This document shows, piece by piece, positions 37 to 23,217 of a stretch of 64,000 nucleotides of DNA. Position 1 is the first letter of the stretch. Every line of letters starts with the position of its first letter. Below the pieces are notes generated by a model. That model was not told the DNA's origin, made no database searches, and worked only from the letters and a program-made list of their open reading frames with translations. This stretch comes from Thermosediminibacter oceani DSM 16646. Lineage in GTDB: Bacteria; Bacillota; Thermosediminibacteria; Thermosediminibacterales; Thermosediminibacteraceae. The stretch lies in NCBI RefSeq assembly GCF_000144645.1, contig NC_014377.1, positions 620,001 through 684,000 of the forward strand, given 5' to 3'. The position numbers and the translations under genes are program-made.

Positions 37-1026
37 GTGGAAGGAAAGATTTTACTCGAAGTTAAGGACCTCACGGTGAAGTTCTTCACCGACGACGGGG
101 TCGTGACGGCGGTGGACCGGGTGTCCTTTGACATAAAGATGGGTGAGACCCTGGGGATGGTCGGTGAGTCCGGCTGCGGCAAATCGGTGACGTCTCTCGC
201 CATCATGCGCCTTTTGCCGTCTCCTCCGGCCAAAATCACCTCCGGAAAAATATTGTTTGAGGGCGAGGATCTTTTGGCAAAGTCCGAGGCGGAAATGAGG
301 CGGATAAGGGGAAACCGGATTTCGATGATTTTTCAGGAGCCGATGACTTCCCTGAATCCGGTATTCACCGTCGGCAGGCAGATTTCCGAGGCGATAATGC
401 TCCATCAGAGGCTGTCCGGAAAGGAGGCCGTAGAACGGGCCGTCGAGATGCTCAGGCTCGTTGGGATACCCAACCCCGAAAAAAGGTATCACGAGTATCC
501 GCACCAGATGTCAGGAGGCATGCACCAGAGAGTGATGATAGCCATGGCCCTTTCGTGCAGTCCGAAACTATTGGTTGCCGACGAACCCACTACAGCCCTG
601 GACGTGACAATTCAAGCCCAGATACTGGATCTGATAAACCGGCTTAAGGACCAGATAGGCATGAGCGTTCTTTTAATAACCCACGACCTGGGTGTCGTCG
701 CGGAAACAGCCGAGAGGGTTGTGGTGATGTATGCGGGACAGGTGGTTGAAGAAGCTGCTTGCGAAGACCTCTTTGAAAGTCCGCTGCACCCTTACACTGC
801 GGGGCTTTTGAAATCCATACCCAGCCTGGGAGGTGAAAAAGGCCGCCTCCACGTGATCGAAGGTACTGTGCCGAATCCCCTTAACATGCCCCCGGGCTGC
901 AGGTTTAACCCCCGATGCCCCGAAGCCGCGGACGTATGCAGGAAAAAGTCCCCCGCCCTCCTGGAGATGGGAAACGGACGGAGGGTGAGGTGTTTTTTAA
1001 GGGGTTCCCACCCCGAGGAGGTGTAG
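37..1026 (+). CDS. dppD: Peptide ABC transporter ATP-binding protein (DppD/OppD type)
   Basis: One of the two cytoplasmic ATPases that power an oligopeptide/dipeptide importer. Visible are a Walker A (GESGCGKS, about residues 43-50), a signature MSGGMHQ (about 159-165, with H where most relatives have R), Walker B LLVADEP and the C-terminal oligopeptide-transporter extension with the CRFNPRC motif. GTG at 37 is preferred to GTG at 28 because the GGGGGTGG ribosome site at 24-31 covers the latter, and the result starts [12 protein letters not shown] like the paralogue at 44955. It lies 4 nt upstream of the DppF partner. The permeases and binding protein should lie just outside the window. Substrate is not determinable. 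Confidence 0.93.
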
Positions 1027-1030
1027 GCGT

Positions 1031-2005
1031 TTGAACCTGCAGGACATAGTCGAAGTGCAGGGGCTTGTAAAGTGGTATCCGGTGAAAGCCGGAGTATTCC
1101 AAAAAGTGGTGGGTTACATCAAAGCCGTCGACGGCGTGAGCTTCAGCATAAAAAGAGGAGAAACCCTGGGACTGGTGGGGGAGAGCGGCTGCGGCAAGAC
1201 CACCACCGCCAGGTGCATGCTGAGGCTGATAGAACCCACAAAAGGCCGAATACTGTTTAACGGTAGGGATATAATGAGACTTAACCGTGAAGAGCTCAGG
1301 AAGTTACGGCCAAAGATGCAGGTGATATTCCAGGACCCATATAGTTCCCTCAACCCCAGGCTTACCGTTAAAGAAATAATAGGCGAAGCACTGGCCTTTC
1401 ACGGCATCGCCAGGGGAAAGGAACTGGAGGAAAGGGTAAAGCACCTGCTGGAGATGGTGGGCCTTGCTCCGCACCATATGAGGCGGTTCCCCCACGAATT
1501 TTCCGGGGGCCAGAGGCAGAGGATAGGTATCGCCAGGGCCCTAGCTACCAATCCGGACCTCGTAGTGTGCGACGAGCCGGTATCGGCCCTGGATGTTTCC
1601 ATACAGAGCCAGATTCTGAATCTCCTGGAGGACCTGCAGGCCCGCCTTGGGGTGTCCTATCTTTTCATAGCCCACGGGCTTAACGTGGTAAAACACATAT
1701 CCCACAGGGTGGGTGTAATGTACCTGGGGAAAATAATAGAGATAACCGAAAGCGACGAGATTTACCGAAACCCCCTCCACCCCTATACCCAGGCGCTCAT
1801 TTCGGCCATACCTTTACCGGAACCAAAAGTCAAGAGGCGAAAAATACTGTTGGAAGGGGATGTGCCCAGTCCCCTTAATCCGCCGGAGGGGTGCCGGTTC
1901 TGGACAAGGTGCCGACACGCAGTGAATATATGCAGGCGGGAGGAACCGGAACTATTTGAATGCGCTCCCGGCCATAAGGTGGCATGTCATCTTTATAGGC
2001 GATGA
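1031..2005 (+). CDS. dppF: Peptide ABC transporter ATP-binding protein (DppF/OppF type)
   Basis: Second ATPase of the importer whose first ATPase ends 4 nt upstream. Walker A GESGCGKT (about residues 50-57), signature [15 protein letters not shown], Walker B LVVCDEP and the C-terminal CRFWTRC oligopeptide-transporter motif are all present. The start is TTG, set by GAGGAGGTG overlapping the dppD stop. The H-loop reads FIAHGLNVV, whereas the family normally has FIAHDLSVV; the switch histidine is kept. The stop codon abuts the end of the convergent rhomboid gene with no gap and no visible terminator between them. Confidence 0.93.
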
Positions 2006-2689
2006 CTAATACCGATCTCTGAGGAAAAATCTATTTAACAGCACGCCGCTGACAAACCCTCCGATGTGTGCCCACCATGCAATTCCTGAAACCGCCGCAC
2101 CGCCGATGACGGACAAGACCGTGCCGGAATAGAGCTGGGCCAGGAACCACAGGAAAAGGTAGACCACGGCGGGTATCTGGATGAAGATTGGAACCAGGAA
2201 AAAGGTCGGCACCAGGGTGATTATCCTCGCCGATGGGAATAACACGAAGTACGCGCCCATTACGCCCGCGATAGCTCCAGAAGCCCCCACCACCGGTACC
2301 CGTGATAAGGGGTTGAAAACCAGGTGAAACACGCCTGCGATTACACCGCTGAGGAGGTAGAAGAGCAGGAACCTTATATGGCCCATCCTATCTTCTACGT
2401 TGTCACCGAAAAGCCACAGTATCCACATGTTGCTGATTAAGTGGAGTGTGCTCCCGTGGAGAAATATACTGGTAATAAATGGATAAAGGTCGCCTAGGGA
2501 AAACGGTGCACCGGATACCACCAGTTTCGTAATTTTCACCGGTATTAACCCGTATTTGTGGGTGAACCCCACGAAGGTCCTGTATGGAGTGTCCGAGAGA
2601 GTAAAAAATATGAGCGAATTTATTATTATGAGCAGGACCGTAACGAGAGGCGGTCGCCTGCTCGGGATGTTGTCCCTGATTGGAAACAT
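2006..2689 (-). CDS. Rhomboid family intramembrane serine protease
   Basis: Integral membrane protease predicted to cleave substrates within the bilayer. The 227-aa protein has about six hydrophobic segments. It carries the rhomboid features in order: the HGSTLHLISNMW segment (residues 78-89, with Asn87 of the oxyanion region), GASG with nucleophile Ser137, and AHIGG with His208 completing the Ser-His dyad. The region around 128-140 also carries the usual small-residue GxxxG packing. A GGAGGG ribosome site lies 6 nt before the ATG. It is a single gene convergent with dppF. Substrates are unknown. Confidence 0.93.
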   Translation of the reverse strand: MFPIRDNIPSRRPPLVTVLLIIINSLIFFTLSDTPYRTFVGFTHKYGLIPVKITKLVVSGAPFSLGDLYPFITSIFLHGSTLHLISNMWILWLFGDNVEDRMGHIRFLLFYLLSGVIAGVFHLVFNPLSRVPVVGASGAIAGVMGAYFVLFPSARIITLVPTFFLVPIFIQIPAVVYLFLWFLAQLYSGTVLSVIGGAAVSGIAWWAHIGGFVSGVLLNRFFLRDRY

Positions 2690-2790
2690 CTTAAACCCTC
2701 CGTTTTTCTTATTGTTAGCTTTGCATTAACATTATATTAAGATTATAGCACAGGTGGGAATAAATAACAGAACAAGCGAAGTGCCTATGA

Positions 2791-2821
2791 TTGTAACTTC
2801 TTATGTAAAGCAACATATACT
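2791..2821 (+). promoter_or_regulatory. Possible sigma-A promoter for the DUF2935 gene
   Basis: TTGTAA at 2791-2796 is followed after 17-19 nt by CATATA/TATACT. It lies about 40 nt upstream of the GTG start. The -35 is imperfect, so this is a weak call. Confidence 0.3.
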
Positions 2822-2858
2822 AGTAGCATTAGAAGGGAATTTTTAGGAGGGATAAGCA

Positions 2859-3818
2859 GTGTCTTCAAATATTGATTTTGTTCGTGAGTCCCTGGATATA
2901 CATCTATTTTTTGCAAGGATCATGAAAGAACATTCTTTTTTTCTTGAAATAGGATTTATGCCTAAAAATGTAAATTTTATCCGGCGAGCAGATGATTTCA
3001 GGAGGGCTTTTGACGGATTATTAAGAGAAGTGATCTTTCTTGCTAATGGTGTTGTTAGCCCCGAAGTACTTCAATCAGGAGAAGTAATAACGCCATACAC
3101 GCTTAAAGCAGAAGAAGTTTCTTCGTTTTTTACAGGGGTTAGGATACCAACTGAATTAACAAAAGCTGAAGATGAATTGTCAGGCTCAGATTCTAGGATA
3201 AATAATCCGATGCTTGAACGGAAAGTGTTTATGCTTAATCAAAGGGCCATGGAATTACTCATCGAATTAATACGATTTAAAACCACTATTTTATCCAATG
3301 TTTTATCCTGCAAAATGTTTACTGTCAACTATCCCCTGCTGATAGAGCATATAAGGAGAGAAACAGAGCTCTATTTACGTATTATTCAGAGGATTCAGGG
3401 TAGAGAGAATATAGATATTAAGAGGGAAGTCCTTGAACAGGAGTTATTCTGGAACAGGATTATGGCTGAGCATGCAAAATTCATCCGCGGGTTGCTTGAT
3501 CCGACAGAAAACGAATTAATCAAAACAGCAAATGATTTTGGGAATGAATTTGACCGTTTGACCAAAGAGGCGAAGGCTGCAATTGATATGACTGTACCTC
3601 CGGAACAGGTCACGGATGATAGTCTCAGGGCAACAAAAGCAATTAGGGATTTCAAGGCACAGGGAACTCAGGGTTTGCTTGAATGCAATATCAGGTCGAT
3701 AATTTTACCATTACTTGGTGACCACGTATTACGTGAAGCAAATCACTATTTGCGACTTTTAAAAATGTTTCAAAGGCATATGTTTGATATTTCCTCTAAC
3801 GGCGTCGATGAGGCTTAA
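2859..3818 (+). CDS. DUF2935 domain-containing protein
   Basis: A 319-aa soluble, mostly helical protein of the DUF2935 family found in Clostridia and Bacilli. It consists of two related halves: the N-terminal half contains SLDIHLFFARIMKEH and the C-terminal half EQELFWNRIMAEH. Each is followed by a four-helix-like stretch with conserved Glu/His residues (residues about 8-135 and 145-310). The repeated ExxxWxxIMxEH-like motif could bind a metal, which is inference. The start is GTG with TTAGGAGGG 7 nt upstream. It is monocistronic with a terminator overlapping its stop. Function is unknown. Confidence 0.85.
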   Translation: MSSNIDFVRESLDIHLFFARIMKEHSFFLEIGFMPKNVNFIRRADDFRRAFDGLLREVIFLANGVVSPEVLQSGEVITPYTLKAEEVSSFFTGVRIPTELTKAEDELSGSDSRINNPMLERKVFMLNQRAMELLIELIRFKTTILSNVLSCKMFTVNYPLLIEHIRRETELYLRIIQRIQGRENIDIKREVLEQELFWNRIMAEHAKFIRGLLDPTENELIKTANDFGNEFDRLTKEAKAAIDMTVPPEQVTDDSLRATKAIRDFKAQGTQGLLECNIRSIILPLLGDHVLREANHYLRLLKMFQRHMFDISSNGVDEA

Positions 3819-3831
3819 AACGCCTTTTTTT
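3801..3831 (+). terminator. Intrinsic terminator of the DUF2935 gene
   Basis: A short stem (GGCGT/ACGCC, or the alternative GAGGC/GCCTT) spans the stop codon and runs into seven Ts. The stem is only about 5 bp, so strength is modest. Confidence 0.55.
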
Positions 3832-3898
3832 ATGGCTTTTGATATTGCATTGATGATGATACCTTATCATAAAATAACCACAGCAAATGCTGACGGCC

Positions 3899-3927
3899 TT
3901 GACATAAATTCTAGTATATAATATAAT
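3899..3927 (+). promoter_or_regulatory. Consensus sigma-A promoter of the aroF-tyrA-aroA operon
   Basis: TTGACA at 3899-3904 and TATAAT at 3922-3927 are separated by exactly 17 nt, a perfect match to consensus. The predicted transcription start near 3934 gives a leader of about 285 nt before the aroF start. Confidence 0.85.
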
Positions 3928-3948
3928 ACTTTCTAACGTAATGCGGGA

Positions 3949-3984
3949 AACCTCTCGCTCCTGACGGGGTGCGGGAGGTTTTTT
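3949..3984 (+). terminator. Leader terminator/attenuator upstream of aroF
   Basis: A 10-bp stem (AACCTCTCGC 3949-3958 with GCGGGAGGTT 3971-3980, one G-U pair) runs directly into a T tract. It lies only about 15 nt after the predicted transcription start of the aromatic operon. A 7-codon reading frame (MRETSRS, ATG at 3941) overlaps the 5' arm. It would cut transcripts to about 50 nt unless antiterminated. No T-box, TPP or other known riboswitch motif was recognised here. Confidence 0.65.
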
Positions 3985-4204
3985 ACATAAGCCGGGAGGG
4001 GTATGGCGTGACTGTCAGAACGAGTTATCCCGGGCCGATTCCTGACGACAATTCGGAAGGGAACCTTCTTAAGGAAACTGCCGGTAACGCCGAAGCTTTT
4101 GTATGCTGTTCCCGGTGGCGGGCGATCTATCCCCCCTCCGGGGGGATATTTACAGGGTGTTTGTAAACGGCACAATATATAAAGCACGTTATTGACATCG
4201 TATA
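3985..4204 (+). other. Structured untranslated leader before aroF
   Basis: No gene is convincing in this stretch. It contains a GC-rich 8-bp hairpin at 4129-4147 (ATCCCCCC/GGGGGGAT) without a following T run, and several smaller G-rich repeats. An open frame through 3969-4166 has no ribosome site or recognisable product. Confidence 0.5.
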
Positions 4205-20829: not shown

Positions 20830-21561
20830 TTACAGGTTTACCGCCTCCGTTAAAATCCTTATCTCCTCATCGGTGAGTTCGCGCCACTCACCCGGCTCCA
20901 GGTTTTCATCCAGCTTTAAAGGCCCCATTGAAAGGCGCTTCAGGTAAGTCACTTCTTTGCCTCTGGCTTTCATCATCCGCTTGATCTGGTGGAACTTGCC
21001 TTCGTATATTGTTACCAGAGCCGAAGAAACCTCTCCGGCTTCCAGTATTTCCAGTTTTGCCGGGAGCGCCCTGTAATCCCCAAGGAAAACGCCTTCTTTA
21101 AAGGCCTTGACGTCTTCCTCTACAAGGCGACCTTTTACTTCCACGTAGTAGACCTTTTCGACTTTTTTTCTGGGGGATAGCAGCCTGTGGGCGAGTTGGC
21201 CGTCGTCGGTGAGAAGGAGCAGTCCTTCCGCGTCCTTGTCAAGCCTTCCTACAGGAAATAGATTTCTGTGGGAGAATTCATCTTCCAGCAGGTCTATTAC
21301 CGTGGTCTCTCGCCTGTCGTGGGTGGCGGAAATAACTCCTTGGGGTTTGTTCATCATGATGTAGATATGTTCTTTGAAAATCAGCAGCTCGCCCGAAACG
21401 CTTATGGAATCAACGGCAGGGGCCACCGGTGTACCGGCATCGGTGACGACCCGGCCGTTCACCTCTACTTCTCCCCGCTTTATTATTTTCTTCACATCCT
21501 TGCGGCTGCCGTAACCTGCCATACTGAGGACCTTGTCAAGACGCTCTGTTTTTTCAGCCAT
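20830..21561 (-). CDS. rRNA pseudouridine synthase (RsuA/RluB/E/F family)
   Basis: Isomerises a specific uridine in rRNA. The 243-aa protein has an N-terminal S4 RNA-binding domain (about residues 6-65, RLDKVLSMAGYGSRKDVKKIIKRG). The catalytic domain has MMNKPQGVISATHD, GRLDKDAEGLLLLTDDG containing the catalytic Asp, and FHQIKRMMKARGKEV. Sequence does not decide between RluB and RsuA target sites. Confidence 0.93.
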   Translation of the reverse strand: MAEKTERLDKVLSMAGYGSRKDVKKIIKRGEVEVNGRVVTDAGTPVAPAVDSISVSGELLIFKEHIYIMMNKPQGVISATHDRRETTVIDLLEDEFSHRNLFPVGRLDKDAEGLLLLTDDGQLAHRLLSPRKKVEKVYYVEVKGRLVEEDVKAFKEGVFLGDYRALPAKLEILEAGEVSSALVTIYEGKFHQIKRMMKARGKEVTYLKRLSMGPLKLDENLEPGEWRELTDEEIRILTEAVNL

Positions 21562-21696: not shown

Positions 21697-21728
21697 TAAA
21701 AAATACAAGGGTACTTTCGGTACCCTTG
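21697..21728 (-). terminator. Terminator of the 133-aa protein gene
   Basis: CAAGGGTAC and GTACCCTTG form a perfect 9-bp stem. Read on the minus strand it runs into a T-rich tract (TATTTTTT). Confidence 0.85.
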
Positions 21729-21737
21729 TGCTCAATA

Positions 21738-22139: not shown

Positions 22140-22241
22140 GGATAACCCTCCTTCTTCCTATTGGCTTTTTGAGCTAATATATAATATGAAATTTCCTAAA
22201 ACCTTGCCCTTGTGGCGTAATAGTAAAGCCCTGCAAGTATC

Positions 22242-22276
22242 AAAAAAAACCCTGGATGTATATACTACATCCAGGG
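22242..22276 (-). terminator. Terminator of the small Trp-rich membrane protein gene
   Basis: A perfect 11-bp stem CCCTGGATGTA/TACATCCAGGG with a 5-nt loop. On the minus strand it is followed by eight Ts. It lies 24 nt after the 31-aa ORF and supports its being a real transcribed gene. Confidence 0.88.
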
Positions 22277-22299: not shown

Positions 22300-22395
22300 T
22301 TAGGAGCACAGAACTATTATCACCACCGGCAGTAAGAATACTAATATAATGATGGGGAAAAACCACCACCACTGTATGTGGGTCAAGTCAGCCAT
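22300..22395 (-). CDS. Tiny Trp-rich single-pass membrane protein (31 aa), copy A
   Basis: Begins MADLTHIQWWWFFPIII and ends VVIIVLCS. It has a short polar head, then WWW at the predicted interface, then one hydrophobic helix interrupted by two prolines. AAGGGAGGTG lies 5-6 nt before the ATG, and the gene is closed by a strong terminator. It is paralogous to the 39-aa ORF just upstream, sharing WWW..F.PIII.VF..P..IIVL. No known family comes to mind; small coat or sporulation-membrane proteins such as YjcZ are comparable only in size. Confidence 0.7.
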   Translation of the reverse strand: MADLTHIQWWWFFPIIILVFLLPVVIIVLCS

Positions 22396-22477
22396 TGCTG
22401 CACCTCCCTTCTACCGTCTCTCCTACTTTCATAATATGCTTTAACTTCATAGGGTGCTAAGACAAAAAACTGCGATA

Positions 22478-22503
22478 AGCTCCGGGAGCTTTTTCCCCGG
22501 AGC
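22478..22503 (-). terminator. Hairpin between the two small membrane-protein genes
   Basis: GCTCCGGG/CCCCGGAGC stem of 8 bp. On the minus strand a T tract begins only about 9 nt after the stem, so it may be a weak terminator or an RNA-stabilising hairpin. Confidence 0.5.
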
Positions 22504-22516
22504 CTTCTTACTAATT

Positions 22517-22636
22517 TTAGACCGCCTGACCCAGAACTATTATTATGATCGGGAAGAAGAATACTACTATAATAATGGGAATGAACAGCCACCACCACCA
22601 GTTAAAGCTTCTCTGGGGCTTTGCAACGTCGGGCAT
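22517..22636 (-). CDS. Tiny Trp-rich single-pass membrane protein (39 aa), copy B
   Basis: Starts MPDVAKPQRSFN, then WWWW, LFIPIII, VVFFFPIIIIVLGQAV. One transmembrane helix follows a cluster of four tryptophans; positively charged residues precede it, suggesting N-in topology. AAAAGGAGGTG lies 5 nt before the ATG, among the best ribosome sites in the window. It is paralogous to the 31-aa ORF downstream on the same strand. Both are too short for default gene callers. Function is unknown. Confidence 0.7.
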   Translation of the reverse strand: MPDVAKPQRSFNWWWWLFIPIIIVVFFFPIIIIVLGQAV

Positions 22637-22878
22637 CTTGGCACCTCCTTTTACGTTTCTACTGATATAGTATTCAAGGGATATTCATGTGTGAATTGAG
22701 GGAATAAAAAGACGTTCTTTGTTTCAGACAACATTTAACAAATTTATAAATATGTAGATATCTTGCCATTTAAAAACAACGTTACGAGAATTTATCAGCA
22801 TATTGATTTCCTTTAAGGTTATTTTAAATATTAGAGTGAAAGAAAAATTGTGCCTTTTGATGGCAAAGGAGTGATTTT

Positions 22879-23217
22879 ATGCGGTCTTTCAGGCCTTTTT
22901 TGGCAGGCGTTTTTGCCGCCGCAATGGCTTATGTCCTGAGCCCTCAAGTCAAAAAAAGGGTCAGGCCTATGGTTGAAAAGGGCATGGAAAAGGTATCGGG
23001 CATGACCGAAAAGGGAAAGGAAAAAGTGGTAGAAATTAAGCACATGATGACTAAAAAAGTGATGGATGAAGGAGAACAGGTGGACCAGCTTGGCTATTAT
23101 GAAGAACTGGAGCGGCTGAAAGAGGAGAGAAACCAGTATTTAGAAGAAATCAAGGAACTAAAAGAGTTGGTAAATCATCTATATGATGAAATTAGGGAAC
23201 TAAAAAACAAAAGCTGA
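22879..23217 (+). CDS. YtxH-like small membrane-anchored protein
   Basis: A 112-aa protein with a short N-terminal hydrophobic segment (FLAGVFAAAMAYVLSP, about residues 7-22). A basic amphipathic stretch follows (VKKRVRPMVEKGMEKVSG...) and then a C-terminal coiled coil (about 70-110). This layout is typical of YtxH/gas-vesicle-like envelope stress proteins, although similarity is mainly architectural. AAAGGAGTG lies 7 nt before the ATG and a terminator follows directly. Divergent from the small membrane-protein cluster. Confidence 0.6.
   Translation: MRSFRPFLAGVFAAAMAYVLSPQVKKRVRPMVEKGMEKVSGMTEKGKEKVVEIKHMMTKKVMDEGEQVDQLGYYEELERLKEERNQYLEEIKELKELVNHLYDEIRELKNKS

Follow-up and report, generated by a model that had tools for sequence, protein, structure and literature searches.

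What are the two very short open reading frames that lie in tandem on the minus strand of the Thermosediminibacter oceani DSM 16646 chromosome, and what might they be for? We addressed this question in a window of 64 kb, the whole stretch of DNA that was analysed, which belongs to a genome of 2,280,035 bases in a single contig; start codons and tiny ORFs were called with purpose-written scripts. ORF A (22517-22636, minus strand; MPDVAKPQRSFNWWWWLFIPIIIVVFFFPIIIIVLGQAV, preceded by AAAAGGAGGTGCCAAG) encodes 39 aa, and ORF B (22300-22395, minus strand; MADLTHIQWWWFFPIIILVFLLPVVIIVLCS, preceded by AAGGGAGGTGCAGCA) encodes a paralogue of 31 aa. Both frames and their strong ribosome sites are present as an earlier note on this DNA had described them, and the common pattern that it had drawn from them is correct: a short head, WWW or WWWW (WWWW in A) and a hydrophobic stretch with two prolines nine residues apart (P20 and P29 in A). 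The AlphaFold2 model of A consists of one helix, residues 12-38, which is confident in its core, free of charged residues and has the Trp cluster at its beginning. In membrane proteins, Trp is usual at the membrane interface. No Pfam, NCBIfam or PHROGs family matched A or B above the cut-off, in agreement with the remark that no described family carries such a signature. A and B are real tiny proteins of one family, and very probably span the membrane. Hairpins had been claimed 3' of both ORFs and both were found. The one after B (22250-22276, minus strand; 11 stem pairs, 8 T, fold z = -3.4) is a perfect intrinsic terminator. The one after A (GGCTCCGGGG..CTCCCGGAGC, approximately 22480-22510, minus strand; fold z = -2.2) is stable, and since its T run begins about nine bases past the stem instead of adjoining it, it is not a textbook terminator.

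The search in relatives that the earlier note had proposed showed that seven further genomes of the family have A/B homologues in the corresponding position. Both ORFs are present in T. oceani (G000), T. litoriperuensis (G001), G003 and G007, and B, which has orthologues in all seven, occurs without A in four of them (G004, G005, G006 and G008); the ninth family genome, G002, holds a more distant relative within a gene cluster of its own. In the seven genomes the position is constant wherever the contig shows it, with the order YtxH-like gene, A, B, rsuA. In T. oceani these conserved neighbours are a divergent YtxH-like gene (22879-23217, plus strand) and a gene for an rsuA/rluB-type pseudouridine synthase (20830-21561, minus strand). 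A lack of conservation of the reading frames had been named earlier as one finding that would refute the pair, but the frames are conserved: four sequences of A gave a pN/pS of 0.26, and seven of B gave 0.38. Judged from this pattern of substitution, A and B are protein-coding and under purifying selection. Beside rsuA, several relatives (L005, L006 and L162) carry a small membrane protein with a SHOCT-like tail at the place where T. oceani has the gene that we call P3.

In the window, as in T. litoriperuensis, the first gene to follow B downstream is P3 (21738-22139, minus strand). It encodes 133 aa of an unnamed family with a C-terminal EFQHLMAN motif and is followed by a terminator-like hairpin (21705-21729, minus strand). 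Among 398 sampled genomes of the phylum P3 is present in 43, and Q, another protein without a name (about 110 aa), is present in 46; the two occur together in 37 genomes, against 5 expected, and one or the other is found in 52. P3, Q and an S8 subtilase (PF00082), whose genes begin with a hydrophobic segment, form one gene set. Searches of Pfam, NCBIfam and PHROGs gave nothing above the cut-off for P3 or Q, the structure prediction of P3 reached a pLDDT of 55, and a fold search with that model returned no match below E 5. The only PDB sequence matches of P3 were designed helical bundles or coiled coils with E near 0.01, which we took as chance.

Weak matches to A and B in other families turned out to be tiny ORFs with a ribosome site, located beside relatives of P3 or Q. 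G002, the only genome among the other genera of the family to keep the set together, has its genes arranged as rsuA, P3, S8, Q, tiny WWW, and G012 and G009 (family f2) have rsuA, tiny, P3, S8, tiny, Q; rsuA adjoins P3-S8-Q in G002 and G012. Tandem pairs of tiny genes are located between S8 and Q in f18 and f53; the pair is next to Q in f33 and next to S8 in f122. In T. oceani and most of its family A and B are far from S8 and Q; the T. oceani P3b-S8-Q set lies at chromosome positions 484181-486167, and A, B and another P3 stand at rsuA. The P3b-S8-Q set adjoins genes resembling an IS21-type istAB pair and another transposase (L159 (G000:C1:480000-492000), 391-4118), and these transposon-like neighbours may explain its separation from A and B. 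The S8-P3 unit occurs twice in tandem in Tepidanaerobacter sp. DTU063 (L037:3-3182), and a protein of 340-360 aa (VVGVGRGYK...) without a Pfam match follows S8 in f53 genomes (L171:1903-2925, L172:1146-2237 and L238:9159-10244).

The tiny proteins of several other families of Clostridia have about 28-46 residues, contain W, form one helix and often come in tandem pairs. We scanned for them with criteria that were applied alike everywhere (26-50 aa, a Shine-Dalgarno sequence, a W and at least 18 consecutive uncharged residues). Such ORFs were found at 18 of the 23 P3 loci outside the family (73.7 kb). The controls, 75 rsuA loci (753 kb) and 20 stretches elsewhere in P3-bearing genomes (400 kb; 1.15 Mb of control DNA in all), had none. 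The Fisher P value for P3 loci against controls is 1.6e-15, and it overstates independence because the sequences counted are related. The criteria were set after the first examples had been seen, and the P3 profile was seeded in part with a locus from among the 23 (G189); a contrast of such size cannot stem from either circumstance. Within the 64 kb window A and B alone qualify and in the 753 kb and 400 kb of control DNA nothing does, which bears out the earlier opinion that the pair is hard to explain by chance. A and B share the traits of the class, namely a length of 26-50 aa, a Shine-Dalgarno sequence and Trp ahead of one uncharged helix, and also its gene context, with P3 adjoining B downstream. 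Direct comparison of the A/B profile with that of a further set of tiny WWW proteins, drawn from other families (A1 vs A8), gave E 1.7e-11. When A/B were aligned with the MTQ-type tiny proteins that f2 and f53 carry (A1 vs A7), the match covered only five columns with a probability of 35 and is not significant, and we therefore do not claim common ancestry of all tiny subtypes. As far as sequence and gene order go, A and B are a local form of a wider class of tiny proteins linked to P3, the S8 subtilase and Q.

We then consider how these genes may be switched on. The earlier note had pointed to a sporulation-type -10, CATATTATG, ahead of A and had called its -35 weak. The hint at sporulation proved the most productive part of that observation, but the placement was wrong, as the element lies downstream of A and upstream of B; nor is the -35 weak, since it is CACC (22456-22453), which is good for sigma-K. 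The putative sigma-K-type promoter of B spans 22430-22456 (minus strand), with CATATTATG at 22438-22430 and 15 nt from AC to CATA, and the seven other genomes have also kept CATATTAT upstream of B. The putative promoter of A (22666-22693, minus strand) consists of CAC (22693-22691), 15 nt and GAATACTATA (22675-22666), with GCATACTATA in T. litoriperuensis. P3 has a -10-like CATATTATA (22180-22188, minus strand) without a clear -35. The -35 of sigma-K promoters is AC, against ATA for sigma-E, and CATATTAT is the canonical mother-cell -10 (PMC3789822); the spacing of sigma-K promoters in B. subtilis is 15 +/- 1 (PMC517825). The elements of A and B, with AC at -35, about 15-17 nt and a CATANNNTA-like -10, match the sigma-K arrangement, although sigma-E has the same -10, which counts against the assignment.

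The arrangement is not limited to T. oceani. Upstream of A, B and the tiny genes of f2, f18, f122 and G002, at about 40-60 bases from the start codon, there is CAC or ACC, 15-17 bases and CATANNNT[AG], in most cases CATATTATA/G, and many P3 genes have the same -10. Between -24 and -56, CATANNNT[AG] precedes 17 of 38 tiny genes and 12 of 20 P3 genes (shuffle means 0.66 and 0.40, respectively), compared with 4 of 203 other genes; in a later set it was found in 5 of 14 (shuffle mean 0.19). Matches are missing for most of the tiny genes of f33 and f53. A genome-wide scan for MAC-N16-CATANTATA gave 2 sites and its reversed control also 2, so the promoter argument rests on the comparison between genomes and not on rarity in one genome. 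The S8 genes show a different and very regular element, CAC-N16-GAATANNNT, in 14 of 15 cases (e.g. L159, upstream of 4684).

Sporulation of T. oceani is recorded as not observed (PMC3035372). Its genome carries spoIVA and an intact sigK (369 bits, with a cut-off of 298.65). The gene spoIVA is present in each of the 52 genomes that carry P3 or Q, compared with 336 of the 398 overall (hypergeometric 7.6e-5, not corrected for kinship), a weak link given that spoIVA is common anyway. In three f33 genomes yabG (TIGR02855, 332 bits in the one tested) is followed directly by P3, and Coat_F genes (PF07875, 97 and 82 bits) lie near P3 in two f18 genomes (L228:5605-6174 and L230:15418-15990).

We propose, with a probability of roughly 0.7, that A and B are late mother-cell proteins with sigma-K-type promoters that would build or mature the outer spore envelope together with P3, S8 and Q. 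The basis of this proposal is the coding conservation, the linkage of tiny genes, P3, S8 and Q, the conserved promoter elements, the intact sigK and the linkage to yabG or Coat_F in some genomes. Many spore-forming bacteria have members of this unnamed class, often as pairs, next to P3, Q and the S8 protease and with what looks like a late-sporulation switch, so that the class is probably an overlooked part of the wrapping of the spore. Sigma-K would drive their expression late in the mother cell, and the peptides would insert into the mother-cell or the outer forespore membrane with the Trp cluster at the interface, where they may serve as small scaffolds or oligomers. Together with P3 and Q they could assemble the outer envelope, be it the outer forespore membrane or the coat, and the S8 subtilase would act on its partners as a processing enzyme; the exact biochemical step of A and B is a guess. 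More tentatively, and at somewhat less than even odds, the paired Trp-rich tiny proteins, P3, Q and a dedicated S8 may make up an unnamed sporulation module of the Clostridia for the construction or processing of a layer at the outer forespore membrane, a function that would be without counterpart in Bacillus.

The position of the tiny pairs, often directly beside S8 or between S8 and Q, could also mean that A and B are subunits or regulators of the neighbouring protease, like other tiny regulatory membrane proteins, with a role beyond the spore. The hydrophobic start of the S8 genes and their regular promoter element would suit such a partnership, but in T. oceani, as in most of its family, S8 and Q are located a long way from A and B, whose promoters are of the mother-cell type, and we consider it unlikely. 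We give still less credence to type I toxins or holin-like pore formers, acting for example in mother-cell lysis. Tandem tiny hydrophobic proteins are in keeping with that idea and a late mother-cell promoter would fit lysis, yet the orthologous position is conserved across the whole family, with no sign of mobility, and the linkage to P3, S8 and Q also argues against it.

A role in ordinary vegetative cells, with a misleading resemblance of the promoters, would agree with the absence of visible sporulation in T. oceani and with a sigma-70-like match (9/12) that overlaps both promoter elements. Such matches, however, are near the shuffle level, and several families have kept the AC...CATATTATA/G arrangement, which leaves this explanation quite improbable. 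The runs of TGG codons followed by hairpins recall Trp-codon leader peptides for attenuation, a notion that we rejected as scarcely credible, because it is contradicted by pN/pS over the helix and by the gene context, with no Trp genes downstream. Conservation also covers the hydrophobic part that follows the Trp run, the number of Trp varies from W to WWWW, and the ORFs have putative promoters of their own and B also its own terminator.

A place for A and B in the late mother cell, as we prefer to see them, would recall some known proteins. SpoVM is a tiny mother-cell morphogenetic peptide at the forespore membrane, a likeness that we propose for A and B, but it has a charged amphipathic surface helix whereas these are uncharged hydrophobic spans. 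Subunits of the CydX/KdpF type are one-span proteins of about 30-40 aa, as A and B are, which in contrast have no such partner enzyme complex nearby. YjcZ and comparable membrane proteins of Bacillus sporulation are likewise tiny and hydrophobic, and in B. subtilis yjcZ has been placed in the sigma-K regulon (PMC517825); A and B differ from these proteins in having no Pfam or NCBIfam match at E <= 1, in their Trp cluster and spaced prolines, in their occurrence as pairs and in the fixed linkage to P3, S8 and Q. Tiny sigma-K-dependent membrane proteins are thus already known as a kind from YjcZ, and the linked gene set is the more novel aspect. In C. difficile sigma-K controls a YabG-like protease (PMC3789822), and the P3 genes found directly downstream of yabG share the neighbourhood of this spore coat protease; the protease of the P3/Q set, however, is an S8 subtilase and not U57, and A and B are not proteases. 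In the text of open-access papers we found no description of the tiny class linked to P3, S8 and Q.

If our proposal is true, a late sporulation gene set would have been overlooked in about one eighth of the species sampled from the phylum (P3 or Q in 52 of 398), because gene finders do not accept ORFs as short as its most characteristic members and no family model covers the larger ones. The set would also offer concrete targets for the study of the spore envelope in thermophilic Clostridia, possibly including Moorella-like lineages (f18, a naming by inference).
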